IMG/VR virus record: IMGVR_UViG_3300042503_000986
Location: 1-33,963 of that record
DNA from: a virus
Reading direction: 5' to 3' (one strand)
Length of the DNA stretch: 33,963 nucleotides
Shown here: piece by piece, positions 2,321 to 25,817 of the stretch
How the letters are laid out: every line of letters begins with the position of its first letter
How positions within the stretch are numbered: the stretch's first letter is position 1
Position numbers and translations under genes: made by a program
Notes under the pieces: generated by a model
Told to the model about the DNA's origin: nothing
What the model saw: the letters and a program-made list of their open reading frames with translations, nothing else
Databases searched by the model: none

Positions 2321-3880
2321 TCAACCTGCAGGTTTTGATTTTACACCAAGTGCCTTATTACGAGCAGCGTCGTTTGCTCTTGCGGTAGCAAGTTTCTTAG
2401 CAGCATTTGCCGCATCAGATTTCTTGTATGCACCAGCAAATAAAGATCTACCAATTCTTTCTAATGGATTAGAAGAAGTCTTAGCAAGTGACTGAGCACT
2501 TGGGCCCGCTTTATAAACTGCTTTGCCACCTTTATATGCAAGATGTCCCGCAACAGATTGACCACCTCTTTGAACTACACCAGTCTTAGCAAGACCAACT
2601 GTTTTTCTTTGTGCTCCAGTTCCTGTAGTCATTGTATTCTTTTTAGTATCGAAGGTTGTTTTACCACCAATACCTTTAAGTGCAGTTCCTGCTTGGCGCT
2701 GACGATTCGCAGTTGCCATTGCTTTTCTTTCTTTAGCATTTGCTCCAGCAACAGTGTCAAACGCCTTTTCTGCAGCAGCACCGCCCGCCATAGCGCCAGC
2801 AGTTCCTGTGGCGGCACTCAATAATCCACCACCACCAATTGCTCCTGCAGTACCACCAAGAAGTCCTCCAGCGGCAACTGTAGCACCTTTAGCGAGTGAT
2901 CTTGCCCATCCAGATCCTTTTGCTCTTTCATCGGCAGTAGAGAGTGCAGTATCTAGTACTGCAGAAGCAGGTCCAGCAATCCTACCAAATCTGCTTGGTT
3001 TTACCCCAGCGGGTGGTTTTCCTGCTGACGCTGGTACTATTGCAGAAGAAGATGGTTTTCCTGTATTGGTTAAACTTGATGATTGTCTTTTTGCTAATGC
3101 ACTTGAAGAATTCTTAGCATCATATGCTGCTGCCCTTGCCACCTTTCTGTCTGCTCTAATTTTACGAATTTCTGCCTCCATTTCTGGAGTAATTTCTCTT
3201 CTTCCACTGCTAGTAGTTGATCTCTGTGGTTGTGCTTGTGGAGTAGATGCTTTTACGGTTTCTTTCCCCACACCAAATGTTGAACTAGATGATGAATTTG
3301 AAGGTTTTGGAGTTTTTCCTGGTCTTGGTGTGTTTGTTCTATTTGCAGCATCTTGTGCGCCTTGCATCATAGCATCTGGAATACCAGGATTACGACTAGT
3401 GCGTCTTGCTAAATCTCCACCCCTTTCTCTAGATCCTATAGGAGGTAATGCCTCTTTTGGAGTTGTTCCGCCTGCAGGGGTAAGTGTTTTATTTGGAATT
3501 CTACTTGAAGGACCTTCTTTAGGAAGACCTAATTGTGGTTGACGTTTTTTAGGGAACCAATTCCATGGATCGCCAGGTTTTCTTGCCGGACTTGATACTT
3601 TAGTTACTTTTGGTTCTACATTAGGTTGAGTTGTTCTAGATGCAATATCGTTTGTCGTTGTAACTTCTGGTGCAGCGTTTGCAGATGCTCTTGCAGATCT
3701 AATCGCAGGAGCAGAAGCACCCCCTTGCAATGGTTGTCCCTGTCTTCCTAAAGCAGCCTTACTTCCACCCAATCTTCTTCTTGACTCTGCAGGTAAAGAA
3801 TTAAATTGATCTCTAGTCATACCTGCTGGTACTTCCTCATTCAAATATGATTCATGCAAAAACTGACTAAAAGACTTCAT
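2321..3880 (-). CDS. Ala/Gly/Ser-rich late protein with a capsid-targeting-like N-terminus
   Basis: 519 residues beginning MKSFSQFLHE, which resembles the ten-residue capsid-targeting peptide of T4 internal head proteins (MKTYQEFIAE) and ends in LHE, fitting the T4 gp21 protease rule (Leu/Ile-x-Glu). The next ~320 residues are low-complexity, basic and rich in Pro, Ser and Ala. Residues about 328-372 form a Gly/Ala hydrophobic segment (GGLLGGTAGAIGG) like a glycine-zipper or membrane-active helix. The rest is Lys/Ala-rich with little acid. A perfect late promoter lies at 3903-3910. No enzyme motif is visible. It may be a packaged basic head protein or an ejected protein; that role is inferred from the N-terminus, promoter and composition. 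Confidence 0.75.
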   Translation of the reverse strand: MKSFSQFLHESYLNEEVPAGMTRDQFNSLPAESRRRLGGSKAALGRQGQPLQGGASAPAIRSARASANAAPEVTTTNDIASRTTQPNVEPKVTKVSSPARKPGDPWNWFPKKRQPQLGLPKEGPSSRIPNKTLTPAGGTTPKEALPPIGSRERGGDLARRTSRNPGIPDAMMQGAQDAANRTNTPRPGKTPKPSNSSSSSTFGVGKETVKASTPQAQPQRSTTSSGRREITPEMEAEIRKIRADRKVARAAAYDAKNSSSALAKRQSSSLTNTGKPSSSAIVPASAGKPPAGVKPSRFGRIAGPASAVLDTALSTADERAKGSGWARSLAKGATVAAGGLLGGTAGAIGGGGLLSAATGTAGAMAGGAAAEKAFDTVAGANAKERKAMATANRQRQAGTALKGIGGKTTFDTKKNTMTTGTGAQRKTVGLAKTGVVQRGGQSVAGHLAYKGGKAVYKAGPSAQSLAKTSSNPLERIGRSLFAGAYKKSDAANAAKKLATARANDAARNKALGVKSKPAG

Positions 3881-13352: not shown

Positions 13353-14690
13353 TTAACGTTTTACTTTTTTCCTATGTTTATTTATGAAATTAATACCATA
13401 TGCTTTTCCACCAACTTGAAGGTTCTCTGCACCAGTTCCCACTGCTCCAGGAGTCATCATCGTAGCGTATTTAAAAAAACCAGTAGTTCCAACTAAAGTA
13501 TTTGGTTTTCCTGGCATTCTCATTACCCTATTCATTTGTTTTTCAGAATAAGATTCTTTTACATCTTTAATCCAGGATTTGAACATCATTCCATTTTCAG
13601 TCACGCAAATTAGATAGTTAGTTCCTCTACGAATAATTTTACCATTCAATCCAGTATTTAAATTTTCAACAAAAGTTCCAACTTTAAAAATATTTTTGCC
13701 AATATAATTTTCGCGTAGAGAATGTGGATCAAATTTTGGAGCAATTTCCCATGTATTGTATCCTTCTTGTTGTATTTCTTGAATACCCATTCCCTGCCTA
13801 ACAAAATCAAAAAGTTGAAGTGCTTCTTTATTTTTGATTTCTGGAGGAAGACCAGATCTAAATGTCATAAAATCTCCTTCTGCGGCAGCAAGTCTAAGTC
13901 TTGATGCAGAGATTCCTTCAACACCCTTGTTACTATCAGGATCTCTATCACCAGAAGATAGTACATCAATAACATCAAATTGGTAAAGTTGTCCGTTATA
14001 TTCATTGGACAACCTCTCAAATTCTTTAACTCGATCAGATCCACCTACTATTCTAACATTAGTGTATCCATCATTATGTGCCTTTTTAAGAACATCAAAA
14101 ATAGTTCTAAAGTTTGGATCATTTACAATTCTTTCACTATGATTTGGAAACATCATTCTCATGAATGATATTTTAGTATCAGGATCCAGTGGATTTTTCT
14201 TTTTATCTAGACTGCGAGATGGAACAATAATATAGTCACCATCTTCTTCCATTGCTGCCATGGCGGCAGTATCCATTAATTGTTGATGTCCAATCGTAGG
14301 AGGATTAAAACGACCAAAAGCAATTGTAAGAGTTCCTTTTGTTTTAGGAACAGGTGGTGGAGTTGCTACTGGCACTTCTTGAGGAATTTCTTCTTGTGGA
14401 ACATCTTGAGGTTGCTGTTCTACAGGAACCTGTTGCTGTTGAGGAGCAGGTTGTTCTGGATATGAAGATCCTAGAGGAATATTTTTTTCAAATTCACTCT
14501 GTTTTGGATCTTTTCCACCAATAACCTGACGCTTGTTAAAATACTTCAGTTGGCCACCCACGGTCTTTGCCTCAAATTCACCAGTGGCCCTATTATACCA
14601 CCCCCCATGCCCATCGCCAACAAGCGCAAGACGTTTTGCTTGAATCGATGCCGAGGTTGCTTCCGTTATGAATTGGTGAAATTTTTTCAT
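13353..14690 (-). CDS. Nucleotidyltransferase (NMNAT/cytidylyltransferase-like) with a capsid-targeting-like N-terminus
   Basis: 445 aa. It starts MKKFHQFITE-A, matching the T4 capsid-targeting peptide pattern with ITE-A as a possible gp21 cleavage site. A short module follows at 21-55 (GDGHGGWYNRATGEFEAKT), then a Pro/Gln linker. The catalytic domain at ~120-300 has the HxGH-type loop GRFNPPTIGH (126-135) and the second signature ISASRLR (260-266). This family transfers a nucleotide to substrates such as nicotinamide mononucleotide or phosphocholine; the substrate here is not known. Residues ~337-379 form a small beta, KOW-like module (GLNGKIIRRGTNYLICVTE), then a basic tail. Promoter at 14734-14741. 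T4 Alt is a precedent for an enzyme carried in the head. Confidence 0.85.
   Translation of the reverse strand: MKKFHQFITEATSASIQAKRLALVGDGHGGWYNRATGEFEAKTVGGQLKYFNKRQVIGGKDPKQSEFEKNIPLGSSYPEQPAPQQQQVPVEQQPQDVPQEEIPQEVPVATPPPVPKTKGTLTIAFGRFNPPTIGHQQLMDTAAMAAMEEDGDYIIVPSRSLDKKKNPLDPDTKISFMRMMFPNHSERIVNDPNFRTIFDVLKKAHNDGYTNVRIVGGSDRVKEFERLSNEYNGQLYQFDVIDVLSSGDRDPDSNKGVEGISASRLRLAAAEGDFMTFRSGLPPEIKNKEALQLFDFVRQGMGIQEIQQEGYNTWEIAPKFDPHSLRENYIGKNIFKVGTFVENLNTGLNGKIIRRGTNYLICVTENGMMFKSWIKDVKESYSEKQMNRVMRMPGKPNTLVGTTGFFKYATMMTPGAVGTGAENLQVGGKAYGINFINKHRKKVKR
13379..13386 (-). promoter_or_regulatory. Late-type promoter CATAAATA inside the end of the nucleotidyltransferase gene
   Basis: CATAAATA (minus strand) lies in the last codons of the 13353-14690 gene, 36 bases before the ATG at 13343. 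One mismatch to TATAAATA. Confidence 0.55.
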
Positions 14691-18789: not shown

Positions 18790-18926
18790 TCTTTCTCCCC
18801 ATTTTTATTTTTATCGATATAGTTCATTTTATAAGTCCATAGTTTTTGATACAATGCAGAATCTCCTCCCAATCTCATAGCACTAATAATCGTATTCAAT
18901 TCTTTTTCGTTAATAGGCAAATCCAT
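18786..18926 (-). CDS. Small protein (46 aa) between polymerase and uvsX
   Basis: [21 protein letters not shown], then a helix ending DKNKNGEKE. Its ATG overlaps the polymerase stop (TGATG) and its stop overlaps the uvsX start (ATGA), so three genes are coupled. That tight packing, a full reading frame and the charged but orderly sequence support a real gene. Function unknown; a helical peptide that contacts the polymerase or UvsX is one possibility. Confidence 0.75.
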
Positions 18927-21433
18927 CAGTTAAAAAATGATTCTAGGGTTGTTGTATGTTCTGTTTTCCATCCAATTGCATCAAGAATGGACTTAAGTGG
19001 TTCAAGAAAACTCTTTTCAAATTGTAGTTCATAATCAATATATTTGTCAAGACCAAGTTCTGTAGGAAAGTCTTGAATAAAGGAGATAATATTCTCCTGA
19101 ATAATATTTGGTTTTTTGAGGTAAATAAATTTAATCTTTTCCCCATTACCAATAAGTGAATATTTATTGGTCAGGTTTTTCTCTTTAATATAATGATTAA
19201 AAAGAAGTGCTCCACGAATATGAATTGGTGTTCCCTTCATATAAATGTCAGACTGGGAACGATACTTACGAACATCAGAAGCAGTTCTTGGGAAAGAAAT
19301 CTGCTCTGGTGGAAGTTTTTTGAAGTCGGAACGACACTTATCAATAAACTTAATCACCTGTTCTTCAGTTCCACTCATCATCAGTTTTAGACCATCCTTA
19401 ATCATCTGACGACAAGGTGCTGGAGTAGAAGACTTGACTGCCTCAATGCCCATCATCTTGAGTTTAGGTTCTTCATAACGAACACCTTCACTATCCCAAA
19501 CATTGAGAATATAACGTTTTTTGGCAGTCCAGATTCCACGGTCGGCAATATTCTCACGCTTCATCTGCATCTTCTGATCGTAAGCATTCACATAGTCCGC
19601 CAGTTCTTGGTAGCAACCTTCAATATGCTTTTCAAGTTCCACTTTAGCGACCTTATCAAGGAACGAAACAACGCTTTCAGTAGTTTTCTCTCTTCCCTTG
19701 TATACAGTCTCAACCAAAGGACCCATATTAAGATAAATGGAGTCAGTATCAGAAGCAATAACATAATCAATATCCTGTGTCTTAAGAACTTTATTCAGAT
19801 ACTTATTAATCTTATCTTCAATCCAACGAATTGAAACTTGCCCAGAAAGAGTAATTGCTTCAGCATTCGCTAGTTTAAAATAACGGAAGTACTGATTACC
19901 AATAGCACCATAAGCACTATTAAGTTGAATCTTCCTTGCCATTTGAATGTTGTTACACCTTGCAATCTCCTTTTCCAGTTCTTTGGTTTTCTTCTTTTCA
20001 TATTCTTGCTTTGCAGCGATCATTTTCTTCTTATAGATGGTGCGGTCTTTGTAGATCTTTTCCATCAGTTCAGGAAGAAATCCACGAACATCCTTACGGT
20101 ACATTGCACCATTAGCACAAACTGCATAGTCCTTATAAGGTTCAAAATCAATTTCTTGATTCAGAATCTTATCTACAGTTACTGAGGGATGACGCTGTTC
20201 CACCAAAGTTTCTGGGGAGATGTTGTATTGCATAATCAGGTGAGGATACAGAGAGTTAAGGTCAAAGTTCACCACCCAATCATACACACCAGGAATCGGT
20301 TCTTTTACATATGCACCAGCATACTTAGAATCTTTATCAGACCTCACATTCGGAGGAATCACAATATTCTTCTTTTTCAGATAGTTGTAGATAATCGTAT
20401 CCCACATACGAACCTGAGAGAACACATCAGCATAATTTGCTTTAGCGTCATATGCCATTGTCAAAGCAAGTTCAATCAGTTTCATCTTGTCTTCCAAACG
20501 GTCAACAAGTTCCACGTCAATAATGTTATATTCTACAAACTTCTGCCAACCTTTGGTATAGAAATCTTTGAACGTATCAAATTCACTGTGGTCCAACTTT
20601 TTCTGCCCAAGTTCCACATTTGCAATGTGGTCAAGACGATAAGATTCCTGTGCCTTATAAGTAAACTTCTTGTAAAGGTTCAGATAATCAAGTTGACTCA
20701 CTCCACCAATATCGTAAGAGATATGTTTGCGTCCAGAAATAAAGGTCTCCCGTTCAGTAACTAGACCCCACGGAGACATACGCTTCATCAGTTTTTCACC
20801 AAGAACACGGTCTATGCGACGAACCAAATATGGAATGTCGTACAGTTCACTGTTCCAACCAGTAATGACTTCTGGAGTATTTTCCTCAATCATCCACCAA
20901 TTAATAAAGTCATTCAACAAATCATATTCATTTGAAAAAGAACGGTAGTTTACATTACTCTGCTGATTATTAAACTTACCAAGACCCCAAGTACGGATTT
21001 GTTTCGTATTATAATCTTGAATGGTAATCAGCAATACTTCTTCAGCAGAACTTTCTACATCAGGGAATCCGTTCTCTGATGCAACCTCAATATCGATTGT
21101 TGTAACTTTAATTTTACTAATATCAAACTTGAGTTCATCTTCTGGATAAGTCTCAGAAATATACTGATAGATGTATCGGTCATTTCCAGAAATATCAAAC
21201 CCCTTCACACCGTCATACTTTTTAATAAACTCCCTACATTCTCTTACAGTTCCAGGTTGCACTGCTTCAACATATTCACCATTTAGTGTTTGATACTCAG
21301 TATTCTTTTTTGAGGGGACAAAAAGAGTCGGGTAAAACTTCTCACGGGTCATGAAATGTTTACCATTTTCATAACCACGGACCAAGAAGTGATCCCCGAC
21401 CATTTGAACGTTAGTGTAAAAACGAAGCGACAT
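18926..21433 (-). CDS. 43: DNA polymerase (T4 gp43-like, family B)
   Basis: 835 aa (T4 gp43 is 898). It copies the phage genome and proofreads. Exonuclease motif I is DIEVASENG from residue 114; the polymerase motifs are DLNSLYPHLI (391-400), KIQLNSAYGAIGN (501-513) and ASDTDSIYLN (560-569). No intein or insertion is seen. The C-terminus (LDAIGWKTEHTTTLESFFN) ends in the LxSFF pattern of a sliding-clamp-binding peptide, as in T4 gp43. Its ATG overlaps the stop of the 84-aa gene (TGATG). Confidence 0.97.
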   Translation of the reverse strand: MSLRFYTNVQMVGDHFLVRGYENGKHFMTREKFYPTLFVPSKKNTEYQTLNGEYVEAVQPGTVRECREFIKKYDGVKGFDISGNDRYIYQYISETYPEDELKFDISKIKVTTIDIEVASENGFPDVESSAEEVLLITIQDYNTKQIRTWGLGKFNNQQSNVNYRSFSNEYDLLNDFINWWMIEENTPEVITGWNSELYDIPYLVRRIDRVLGEKLMKRMSPWGLVTERETFISGRKHISYDIGGVSQLDYLNLYKKFTYKAQESYRLDHIANVELGQKKLDHSEFDTFKDFYTKGWQKFVEYNIIDVELVDRLEDKMKLIELALTMAYDAKANYADVFSQVRMWDTIIYNYLKKKNIVIPPNVRSDKDSKYAGAYVKEPIPGVYDWVVNFDLNSLYPHLIMQYNISPETLVEQRHPSVTVDKILNQEIDFEPYKDYAVCANGAMYRKDVRGFLPELMEKIYKDRTIYKKKMIAAKQEYEKKKTKELEKEIARCNNIQMARKIQLNSAYGAIGNQYFRYFKLANAEAITLSGQVSIRWIEDKINKYLNKVLKTQDIDYVIASDTDSIYLNMGPLVETVYKGREKTTESVVSFLDKVAKVELEKHIEGCYQELADYVNAYDQKMQMKRENIADRGIWTAKKRYILNVWDSEGVRYEEPKLKMMGIEAVKSSTPAPCRQMIKDGLKLMMSGTEEQVIKFIDKCRSDFKKLPPEQISFPRTASDVRKYRSQSDIYMKGTPIHIRGALLFNHYIKEKNLTNKYSLIGNGEKIKFIYLKKPNIIQENIISFIQDFPTELGLDKYIDYELQFEKSFLEPLKSILDAIGWKTEHTTTLESFFN

Positions 21434-21687
21434 CAGGCAGTTAATTCAAGATACTTTTCAATAATTTCAGGTTTAGGATCAACGATAGTGAGAATACTAT
21501 CAGAATGAATCATCATTTCTCTTTGATCAGTTACATCAGGCCAAGGTGTCAAATTTCCTTCAACATCTATTTGATATGGATTGATTAACTTACAATCAGG
21601 TTCCCCTAACTCAGATCCAATTTCAATAATCTCAGTTACAATTACATTATCAACTTTCAGTAAGAGACATTTGATTGTTTTGTCCAT
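21433..21687 (-). CDS. Small beta-rich protein (84 aa), paralogue of the next gene
   Basis: MDKTIKCLLLKVDNVIVTEI, then NPYQID, LTPW and ILTIVDP in the same order as in the 110-aa neighbour (NPYKV, LTPW, VTLVDP). Short strands around a conserved Asn-Pro-Tyr and Leu-Thr-Pro-Trp suggest a small beta-barrel, perhaps Sm-like, but that is inference. The ATG lies 38 bases inside the upstream gene in another frame. It is the gene right before the polymerase. Confidence 0.8.
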   Translation of the reverse strand: MDKTIKCLLLKVDNVIVTEIIEIGSELGEPDCKLINPYQIDVEGNLTPWPDVTDQREMMIHSDSILTIVDPKPEIIEKYLELTA

Positions 21688-21982
21688 TTACTTTTTCCTC
21701 ATACATTTGTTTAAGTGATTGAATTGGGTCTACCAAAGTTACAACCCAATCCATTGTTACTAGCATCTGCCTATTTTCGCTTAAGATAATCCAAGGAGTT
21801 AATGATACTTGTATCTTAGCATCATATTCAGTCTCTTCAGAGAGAACAATACTTCTTTCAGTAATTACCTTATATGGATTTTCAAAGATATATCCACATA
21901 CATTTTCCTCGGCGGAAATAAGTTCTTTTACATCAGAAATAACTGTTTCTCCAGATTTTAATAGTGCAAGTTTGATTGACAT
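21650..21982 (-). CDS. Small beta-rich protein (110 aa), first gene of the polymerase operon
   Basis: MSIKLALLKSGETVISDVKE, then FENPYKV, SLTPW and VVTLVDPIQSLKQMYEE. The order and spacing match the 84-aa protein next to it, with an ~15-residue insertion in the middle and a polar tail (NGQNNQMSLTES). A strong early promoter at 22004-22032 precedes it, so it is the first product of the operon 110-84-43-46-uvsX-oxygenase-41-mazG. Small early proteins in this position could act on host RNA or replication; nothing proves it. Confidence 0.82.
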   Translation of the reverse strand: MSIKLALLKSGETVISDVKELISAEENVCGYIFENPYKVITERSIVLSEETEYDAKIQVSLTPWIILSENRQMLVTMDWVVTLVDPIQSLKQMYEEKVNGQNNQMSLTES

Positions 21983-22003: not shown

Positions 22004-22032
22004 ATTATAGCAAAAAAATGGGGGAGCGTCAA
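22004..22032 (-). promoter_or_regulatory. Early promoter TTGACG-17-TATAAT for the polymerase operon
   Basis: Minus strand: TTGACG (22032-22027), exactly 17 bases, TATAAT (22009-22004). The -35 lies in the descending arm of the terminator at 22020-22055 and the T7 run lies in the spacer. The start site would be about 15 bases before the ATG at 21982. Confidence 0.85.
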
Positions 22033-22055
22033 CTGGATTTTGCCAGTTGCTCCCC
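22020..22055 (-). terminator. Rho-independent terminator after the 53-aa late gene
   Basis: A 13-bp stem (GGGGAGC-AACTGG with CCAGTT-GCTCCCC) with a two-base bulge and a short loop, followed on the minus strand by CATTTTTTTG. It is the longest terminator in the window and insulates the polymerase operon from the small late gene. Confidence 0.85.
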
Positions 22056-22079
22056 TGCGACGACGATATTCAATTATAT

Positions 22080-22241
22080 TTATTCTTCTTCACATCCTCT
22101 CCCACCACCACCAGGATTAAACGGAACTGCTTTACCAGAGGGAACATTTTGAACTTTTCCTTTCATATAAACCTTATGTGCCTTTGCCATAGGGTACTTA
22201 ATTGTTTTTATTTCATTCAAAAACTGGTGAAAAGTTTTCAT
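22080..22241 (-). CDS. 53-aa late peptide with a capsid-targeting-like N-terminus
   Basis: MKTFHQFLNE-I matches the T4 internal-protein targeting peptide (MKTYQEFIAE) in seven of ten residues and ends in LNE, a possible gp21-type cleavage site. The remainder is basic (AKAHKVYMKGKVQNVPSGKA) and ends in a Gly-rich acidic tail (GGGGRGCEEE). It has a late-type promoter of its own (22257-22263) and a terminator, so it is a one-gene late unit inside the early replication region. I infer a small head-packaged peptide. It has one Cys and no membrane segment. Confidence 0.75.
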   Translation of the reverse strand: MKTFHQFLNEIKTIKYPMAKAHKVYMKGKVQNVPSGKAVPFNPGGGGRGCEEE

Positions 22242-22256: not shown

Positions 22257-22263
22257 TATTTAG
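22257..22263 (-). promoter_or_regulatory. Late-type promoter CTAAATA overlapping the hsp20 stop
   Basis: TCTAAATA on the minus strand includes the hsp20 stop codon (TAA, 22262-22260) and lies 16 bases before the ATG at 22241, giving a very short leader. The same TCTAAATA variant precedes the plus-strand endonuclease gene. Confidence 0.5.
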
Positions 22264-22700
22264 AGATAGTCCTTACGAGTATGATGCTCTGGAACTATTT
22301 TCCCAAGTACGATCCGTAGAAGTCCGTCTTCAAATGTGACTTCGCGGACTTCTGTGTCGTCGGATAAAGTCCACGCTCGTTTAAAACTTCTGCTAGCCAC
22401 TCCCTTGTGGATAAACGTCCTATCCGATTCGGTATCTGATTTTTGCCCTTCGACAAAAAGTTTTCCATATTCTGTGAAAACATTAACCTCTCCCTTCTTG
22501 AATCCTGCTAATGCAATCTCTAAGTGAGACTCTACATTATTTACCTGAATAAGATTATATGGAGGATAATTTGTTGTAGTTTCGTGAAGATTGAACAAAC
22601 GATCAAAATATTCATCCATTCCAATACTATTGCGAGTGATTCTTTCCATCAAAGCAGGAAGATCAGACGCAGTAAACCGTGATGTTGCAAGGTTAGTCAT
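22260..22700 (-). CDS. hsp20: Small heat-shock protein (Hsp20/alpha-crystallin)
   Basis: 146 aa, the usual Hsp20 size. The alpha-crystallin domain spans ~45-140 (YNLIQVNNVESHLEIALAGF, FVEGQKSD, RSFKRAWTLSDD, FEDGLLRIVLGKIVPE). It holds unfolding proteins in a foldable state without ATP; in phage it probably protects virion or early proteins. A phage hsp20 is a hallmark of cyanomyoviruses. It has its own extended -10 promoter. Confidence 0.93.
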   Translation of the reverse strand: MTNLATSRFTASDLPALMERITRNSIGMDEYFDRLFNLHETTTNYPPYNLIQVNNVESHLEIALAGFKKGEVNVFTEYGKLFVEGQKSDTESDRTFIHKGVASRSFKRAWTLSDDTEVREVTFEDGLLRIVLGKIVPEHHTRKDYL

Positions 22701-24379: not shown

Positions 24380-24762
24380 TTTGTTCCTCCAGTTTCAAAT
24401 TTCGATTTAATAAATGTTAGTTGTTCTTTAGTAAGAATCCTCAAAGCCTGTTTTGCCTTTTCATTACTATATCCATAATAACGTTTGACATAATCAAGAT
24501 CTTTGATTTTATCTTGTCGGAGCCAGGGAGAATATCTCTTCTTTTTCCTCAGACTATTTATATAAAAGTCATATTGCATCTTCTTTGGGAGGAAATGATA
24601 TTGGTTCATTTCATTTGCAAACATCAAACAGTCAATATGCCCAGAAAGACAGCGATTGATGATATAAGGTGTATATTCTTTTTCAGATGTAGGATCTTCA
24701 TCCATAATATTATTTTTTGTTTGGTTGATAGAATTCAACCAATCTTTCAATTCATAAGTCAT
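24376..24762 (-). CDS. 62: Clamp loader small subunit (T4 gp62-like)
   Basis: 128 aa, shorter than T4 gp62 (187) but typical for marine T4-like phages. It works with gp44 to load the gp45 clamp. Recognisable: YELKDWLNSINQTKNNI at the start, YIINRCLSGHIDCLMFANEM and LRKKKRYSPWLRQDK. It overlaps regA downstream and the DruA-like gene upstream by four bases each, so it is tightly coupled. Confidence 0.9.
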   Translation of the reverse strand: MTYELKDWLNSINQTKNNIMDEDPTSEKEYTPYIINRCLSGHIDCLMFANEMNQYHFLPKKMQYDFYINSLRKKKRYSPWLRQDKIKDLDYVKRYYGYSNEKAKQALRILTKEQLTFIKSKFETGGTK

Positions 24763-25817
24763 CGAATAATCTCCAAATCATTACCATGTTTCCACAACTC
24801 AAGTTCTGTCCTTAAACGACCTTCAGACTTAAGTTTTTCATATCTCTTTGATGCCTTTTTCTTCCACCATTCGATGACTTCTTGAGGTTCATATCCAAAT
24901 TTAGAAAGATAATATCTTTTCTTTTCAGTTAAAGTTTTTGCGTGTTCGATGCAGGAATTAAATTCATCTAACTTAGAATGACCTTTCAAAGAATTCCTAA
25001 TAATAGAAATCATCTTAGTCTGAATCTTCAATTTCTTTGAAGACTTATCTGCAGAAATGAGTCTTTCTCCACCATTGGCAGTATTATTAAACCACCAAAA
25101 CATTTCCTTGAAGTAATCATCATGAAATAGAGGGAGAAAATTGCTTTCAGTATCTCCTATGTGTCGAATATAAGGTTTAAGACCATCATACATGGATACT
25201 CCTTTCGTTGTACCGTATAGTGAAGTTGTTTCAAAGTATTGAAGATCAATTCCATATTTACGATCAAATTGTCGCTTGAGTTCATTGGAAGAAGCAAGAA
25301 GAGCAAGAAGTTTTCCACCAAGATAATTGTATCCAAATGGTTGAACAGGGACAATGTTAAATCCCATTACAAACTCACTGTTAATTCTGGAAAGTGAAAT
25401 AACCTCACCAAAATAATCATTTCTTGGTTTTGAATTAATTGTTGGAGATCCAAATCGGACTACTCCAATTATCTTATTGCTAGTATCCTCAGTCACAATC
25501 CACTTCAAAGTTCTACCAGGAATTGCTTCTTCGATAGGATTTGATGCAGTATCATTCAAAATTTCTGAGTAAAGATCTTGATTGTACTTGGATGTTGTTT
25601 TGGGATTGGTATTTACCTCATGAATTGAAAATGACATTTCATTTGGATGAAGATTGAAATTGGAGAAAATCTCATCCTCAGGCCCGAACAATTTTCCAGA
25701 TGCATTATCCATTCTACTACGTTTAACATAACGAAGATAATCATCGATACGATTAAACTTGGAATAGTACTGTACAAATTGATCTGCTGCCCAAATTGCA
25801 TCTTCAATAGATAACAT
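24759..25817 (-). CDS. DUF4338/DruA-like protein inside the clamp-loader operon
   Basis: 352 aa. The central part resembles the DUF4338 (DruA) pattern: IGVVRFGSP at 117-125, NYLGGKLLALLASS at 164-177, YGIDLQYFETTSLYG at 188-202, then YDGLKPYIRHIGDTES. DruA is a core component of the Druantia anti-phage systems; its biochemistry is not settled. Flanking regions are helical and charged. Both ends fit the operon (overlap with 62, eight bases from the next gene). A phage copy could be a decoy, an exclusion factor or an unrelated nucleic-acid function. The family call is from remembered motifs and needs a profile search. Confidence 0.45.
   Translation of the reverse strand: MLSIEDAIWAADQFVQYYSKFNRIDDYLRYVKRSRMDNASGKLFGPEDEIFSNFNLHPNEMSFSIHEVNTNPKTTSKYNQDLYSEILNDTASNPIEEAIPGRTLKWIVTEDTSNKIIGVVRFGSPTINSKPRNDYFGEVISLSRINSEFVMGFNIVPVQPFGYNYLGGKLLALLASSNELKRQFDRKYGIDLQYFETTSLYGTTKGVSMYDGLKPYIRHIGDTESNFLPLFHDDYFKEMFWWFNNTANGGERLISADKSSKKLKIQTKMISIIRNSLKGHSKLDEFNSCIEHAKTLTEKKRYYLSKFGYEPQEVIEWWKKKASKRYEKLKSEGRLRTELELWKHGNDLEIIR

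Follow-up and report, generated by a model that had tools for sequence, protein, structure and literature searches.

What is a 53-codon gene doing between hsp20 and the DNA-polymerase operon of a cyanophage, and where does its product go? The DNA analysed here, hereafter the window, is a stretch of 33,963 nucleotides that carries nrdA/nrdB, a primase, a gp41-type helicase, uvsX, the clamp, the clamp loader, regA and cobS, and is therefore a fragment of the genome of a T4-like cyanophage (Kyanoviridae) that infects freshwater cyanobacteria. The nearest match of its polymerase is in the freshwater Synechococcus phage S-SRM01, and those of its Hsp20 are in DSL-LC03 and S-SRM01. The gene lies at 22080-22241 on the minus strand, stop codon included, exactly where an earlier note on this DNA had placed a 53-aa ORF, and its translation is MKTFHQFLNEIKTIKYPMAKAHKVYMKGKVQNVPSGKAVPFNPGGGGRGCEEE, followed by the stop. 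It starts 18 nt after hsp20 (22260-22700, minus strand; PF00011, phrog_432) and is followed by two DUF6561 genes, the first of which (21650-21982, minus strand; PF20198) opens the polymerase operon, and then by the gp43-type DNA polymerase (18926-21433, minus strand; PF00136, phrog_262). Elsewhere in the window, within the phage replication operon, the product of 24759-25817 (minus strand) matches DruA of the Druantia defence system (PF14236, E 1e-13).

Homologues of the peptide, 54-100% identical, were found in 35 viral contigs or loci of IMG/VR. Because of these 35 homologous loci and of the exclusively synonymous change at the key codons, 22080-22241 is a real gene and not a chance ORF. A tblastn search of the phage collection with the window peptide and with its L030 variant gave no significant match, so no isolate there carries the exact window family. 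In the reading that we favour, with a probability of roughly 0.8, the gene product is an accessory, small internal head protein that this T4-like cyanophage makes late, docks through a signal, cuts with a gp21-type protease and keeps with the DNA as a basic 43-residue peptide that most likely enters the host. Late synthesis would be driven by a TCTAAATA promoter that the late sigma factor of the phage recognises, the N-terminal MKTFHQFLNE would dock the peptide on the scaffold core of the prohead, and the protease would cut after E10; the resulting basic peptide of 43 residues would be retained alongside the DNA and enter the host at infection, as T4 IPI, IPII and IPIII do.

The putative capsid-targeting sequence, MKTFHQFLNE (22212-22241, minus strand), with its predicted gp21 cut after E10, was assigned on the basis of conservation within the family and of mutational data on T4 IPIII (PMC9026906). 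All window-family homologues start with MK[TS]FxxF and end with a Gly-rich, mostly acidic tail. Among the 34 distinct coding sequences of the family, F4 and F7 are invariant (34/34) with both Phe codons in use, residue 8 is hydrophobic in 34/34 and E10 is kept in 32/34; residues 5, 6 and 9 vary freely, while positions 4, 7, 8 and 10 are kept despite synonymous codon variation. When the sister family is included (75 distinct coding sequences), F7 is constant and residue 4 is F or Y throughout, with variable neighbouring codons, and, with two exceptions, every protein has a hydrophobic-x-E junction immediately ahead of its body. In T4 IPIII, mutants assign targeting to residues 4 and 7 and processing to residues 8 and 10 (summarised in PMC9026906). 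The alignments thus indicate that the residues kept by evolution here are those flagged by the T4 experiments, which is the core of our argument. The earlier note had proposed a T4-like capsid-targeting start and had named the lack of conservation of the first residues among homologues as a reason to abandon it; this comparison was run and found them conserved at positions 4, 7, 8 and 10. Its statement that T4 internal proteins start with MKTYQEFIAE is correct for IPII and IPIII but not for IPI, which starts with MKTFKEFTST.

The strict motif MK[TS][FY]xxF[LIMV]xE was found at 17 ORF starts and at 0 of ~3,960 internal Met residues of longer ORFs in the same seven sequences, and in four related genomes roughly 1% of the ORFs start with MKx[FY]xxF. 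At the P3 position of the cut site, most window-family homologues have L or I, and the window itself reads L-N-E; the remaining homologues have M, V or F where T4 has L or I, which counts against the packaged-peptide reading. Apart from T4, 10 relatives and isolates were tested, and 9 of them encode a gp21-type protease (PF03420); the 34-kb window stops short of that region.

Cleavage after E10 would release a mature peptide of 43 aa, IKTIKYPMAKAHKVYMKGKVQNVPSGKAVPFNPGGGGRGCEEE (22083-22211, minus strand), with a predicted beta-hairpin and a disordered Gly-rich tail. Its computed net charge of +5 and pI of 9.7 agree with the basic product of about 43 residues that had been proposed in the earlier note. 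The AlphaFold model places a short helix over residues 4-9 and a hairpin over 22-33 and leaves the tail disordered; it is of modest confidence (mean pLDDT 70, pTM 0.42) and too weak for a fold search. Neither the window peptide nor its mature sequence matched a known family in Pfam, PHROGs or PADLOC. This lack of a match for the mature sequence counts against a packaged peptide, as does the predicted mature sister peptide of S-SRM01, which is near neutral (net +1).

That sister peptide is the product of gp246 (PQC13_gp246, L038:2952-3131, NC_070963), the gene found at the same position in S-SRM01, whose annotated start lies 21 nt too far downstream and whose corrected start gives MKTFQQFMEKVGDFG. 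It belongs to what we call the GDFG family, with 76 loci, most of which start with MK[TS][FY]xxF, and with a linker of variable length between the signal and GDFG. Despite these variable linkers, a hydrophobic-x-E is located exactly two residues ahead of GDFG in 37 of the 37 distinct sister proteins; a cut site that keeps its place relative to the body whatever the length of the linker is the pattern that a propeptide should display. The GDFG and window families share the slot, the signal, a similar size, a KT[IV]xYxMA segment and a Gly/Ser-rich acidic or KRKR tail, whereas an extra GDFG...CY segment is specific to the GDFG family. We also considered a common body for the two families, an idea weakened by the fact that the strong whole-length profile comparison rested largely on the signal: when the bodies were compared by themselves, only 17 low-complexity columns aligned, and body homology is suggestive.

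The position behind hsp20 was surveyed starting from hsp20 and blind to the next gene: the 80 nearest hsp20 relatives gave 75 usable loci, on partly redundant contigs. The next gene belonged to the window family at 13 loci, to a variant at 3, to the GDFG family at 11 and to a nucleotidyltransferase at 4, and encoded another protein (MKRFREFILE) at 1, so that a late signal-bearing gene stands behind hsp20 at 32 of the 75 loci, with at least three unrelated bodies among these 32. The nucleotidyltransferase genes (L037:3010-3723; L231; L284; L288:26012-26725) lie behind a late promoter, and their products start with MKTYKGFFKE, MKTYTGFFKE or MKNYKTFLEE, 14-16 nt after TATAAATA; a DSL-LC03 relative of this enzyme is 53% identical to S-CREM2 gp156, a protein detected in virions. 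At one locus, L276, a GDFG peptide is followed by a nucleotidyltransferase. Compared with an empty site, a filled one has the cassette and a repeat of TAAATA in addition: S-SM2 reads CTAAATATAATTGAATATCGTCG, and the window reads CTCTAAATA-cassette-TAAATATAATTGAATATCGTCG. The site behind hsp20 acts as a slot for late signal-bearing genes.

This distribution bears on another explanation, namely that the peptide is no injected effector but a minor part of the prohead core or scaffold, with a role in head shape, and is trimmed or expelled when the head matures. The signal is common to core-associated proteins, T4 IPIII affects head assembly (PMC9026906), and a passive filler could well have such a small size and such a Gly-rich acidic tail. 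However, the peptide is accessory, its two families occupying only 27 of the 75 hsp20 loci while the rest hold other bodies or nothing, and core parts are not so dispensable; we consider such a structural role unlikely, if still a serious contender.

Concerning expression of the proposed internal head protein, the octamer TCTAAATA (22257-22264, minus strand) overlaps the hsp20 stop codon, lies 15 nt upstream of the peptide gene and is conserved in the homologous loci. The cyanophage late promoter has been described as NATAAATA (PMC2984593), a form of which the window has 12 copies on its coding strand and none on the opposite one. In S-SM2, N[AC]TAAATA is found at most 70 nt upstream of 10/19 late genes versus 1/28 early genes, gp15 and gp19 having the C form, and in S-CREM2, [AC]TAAATA is found at most 45 nt upstream of 29/52 virion genes detected by MS versus 23/167 others (p = 5e-9). 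CTAAATA as such is not enriched in the window (5 observed versus 6.7 expected), and its significance comes from its position, strand and conservation and from the S-SM2 and S-CREM2 tests, not from the raw count. We read TCTAAATA as a late-promoter variant that would confer late expression on the peptide gene. A late-type promoter directly upstream had been claimed in the earlier note, with expression together with early genes named as an argument against its own interpretation; the octamer, at 22264-22257, belongs to a class tied to virion and late genes in S-SM2 and S-CREM2.

It could be argued that the octamer is no more than the invariant end of hsp20 together with a 3' RNA element, the peptide gene having no promoter of its own, since phages devoid of the peptide retain T[AC]TAAATA where hsp20 ends. 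This is improbable in view of L022 and L023, where the hsp20 stop codon is shifted and CTAAATA remains outside hsp20, and of L030-L036, where the octamer is located at another distance.

Downstream of the peptide gene, an intrinsic terminator (22019-22058, minus strand) consisting of a GC-rich hairpin and a T-run (-21.5 kcal/mol, z = -2.5) corresponds to the strong terminator already noticed there. It is overlapped by the early-type promoter of the polymerase operon, a sigma70-type TTGACG-17-TATAAT (22004-22032, minus strand; 11/12 consensus match). From the "one-gene late unit" that had been proposed, the late promoter and the terminator are retained, but not the single gene: because the octamer coincides in part with the hsp20 stop codon, it is an internal late promoter in a two-gene unit of hsp20 and the peptide gene with a terminator on either side, and transcripts of hsp20 may read through into the peptide gene. 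A conserved element, TTGAATATCGTCG (window 22053-22082), lies behind hsp20 at many loci, with the late octamer on one side and the terminator on the other; peptide-less phages have it too, and it perhaps corresponds to a short late RNA.

The signal was also found on proteins of cyanophage virions. The window encodes a cytidylyltransferase (13353-14690, minus strand; phrog_395) with the relaxed signal MKKFHQFITE, whose orthologues are present in virions of S-SM1, where the protein is known as T4-GC190 (PMC3037559), and of S-CREM2 (PMC10665884); the T4-GC190 orthologue of S-SM2 starts with MKSFFQFLSE. In S-CREM2, the relaxed signal is carried by 5/52 virion-detected versus 0/167 undetected proteins (virion data from PMC10665884), with p = 6e-4, a value that is optimistic because the motif was relaxed at positions 1-4, 8 and 10 after inspecting the sequences. 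The five matches are a SAM hydrolase, an APH-like kinase, the cytidylyltransferase, a 78-aa protein and a 237-aa protein. The strict MK[TS][FY] form has 0 matches in S-CREM2, and PMC10665884 does not mention an N-terminus common to the S-CREM2 virion proteins. The signal scan of the window also pointed to a 519-aa protein of unknown family (2321-3880, minus strand) that starts with MKSFSQFLHE, has a perfect TATAAATA 22 nt upstream and is likely packaged too; similar starts occur in S-SRM01 (176324) and G005 (76870). From L060:1501 on, MKTFKQFMTE is joined to a double-psi beta-barrel of the RlpA-like type (PF03330), downstream of TCTAAATA; the product is possibly a packaged cell-wall enzyme. 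S-CREM2 gp12 (L287:7704-10313), a Cas9-like nuclease found in virions, contains a signal-like LRFASFMAE about 17 residues in, and its start may be misannotated. It is very improbable that the gene encodes an hsp20-linked early or middle protein, such as an Hsp20 partner, with an MKTFxxF start that is merely an amphipathic helix: the gene is 18 nt behind hsp20, where read-through is possible, and residues 4-9 are predicted to be helical, but the same start precedes unrelated bodies at loci away from hsp20 and marks virion proteins, and the promoter class is late.

Returning to an internal head protein, packaging and cleavage of the window peptide are likely because the signal and cut site are conserved, the promoter is of a late class, relatives encode the protease, virion proteins bear the signal and a slot lies behind hsp20. 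The packaged head peptide of the earlier note is thus supported overall by signal conservation, by the promoter class and by the same signal on cyanophage virion proteins, from which we infer packaging itself. T4 IPI blocks a restriction enzyme; T4 IPIII is required on strain ECOR17 and, even when stripped of its signal, is active in the cytoplasm (PMC9391042). By analogy, the peptide most likely enters the host, where an anti-defence or host-takeover role would be plausible; DNA condensation or head filling are alternative roles.

The window peptide shares with T4 IPI, IPII and IPIII the aromatic residue 4 and F7 of the N-terminal signal, and with IPII and IPIII the hydrophobic residue 8 and E10. 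As with these proteins, the mature product is basic (a prediction here), the gene is accessory and variable bodies follow one signal. In contrast to them, the mature sequence matches no known family, the peptide is only about half as long as IPI or IPII, and its gene adjoins hsp20 in a cyanophage behind a TCTAAATA late promoter. T4 gp61.1 (54 aa, MKTFKEFIKEDMVAG...), next to the primase gene, resembles the peptide in length, signal and location in the replication region, whereas its body looks unrelated and the 40 nt upstream hold no late-promoter octamer. Annotated only as hypothetical in its record, gp61.1 (L285:1467-1631, that is, T4 18966-19130) starts with MKTFKEFIKE beside gp61.2, and is possibly an unrecognised internal head peptide of T4. 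The T4-GC190 cytidylyltransferase, detected in S-SM1 and S-CREM2 virions (PMC3037559, PMC10665884), has the N-terminal signal and the late promoter in common with the peptide, but it is an enzyme-like protein of 286-445 aa.

In the literature searched, we found no description of a capsid-targeting sequence in cyanophages, and the shared head-loading signal together with the hsp20 cargo slot appears undescribed there. The window peptide is probably a new family within the known class of T4-type internal head proteins. We give even odds to the broader proposal that, in T4-like cyanophages, one head-loading signal delivers swappable peptides and enzymes into cyanobacteria, with the hsp20 slot as a site of cargo exchange and the 53-aa peptide as an injected effector. 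If the signal is general in Kyanoviridae, which are very abundant viruses, it would explain the presence of a cytidylyltransferase, a SAM hydrolase and a kinase in cyanophage virion proteomes, and the proteins carried into the cell with the DNA could be listed from sequence and tested singly for roles in countering host defence.
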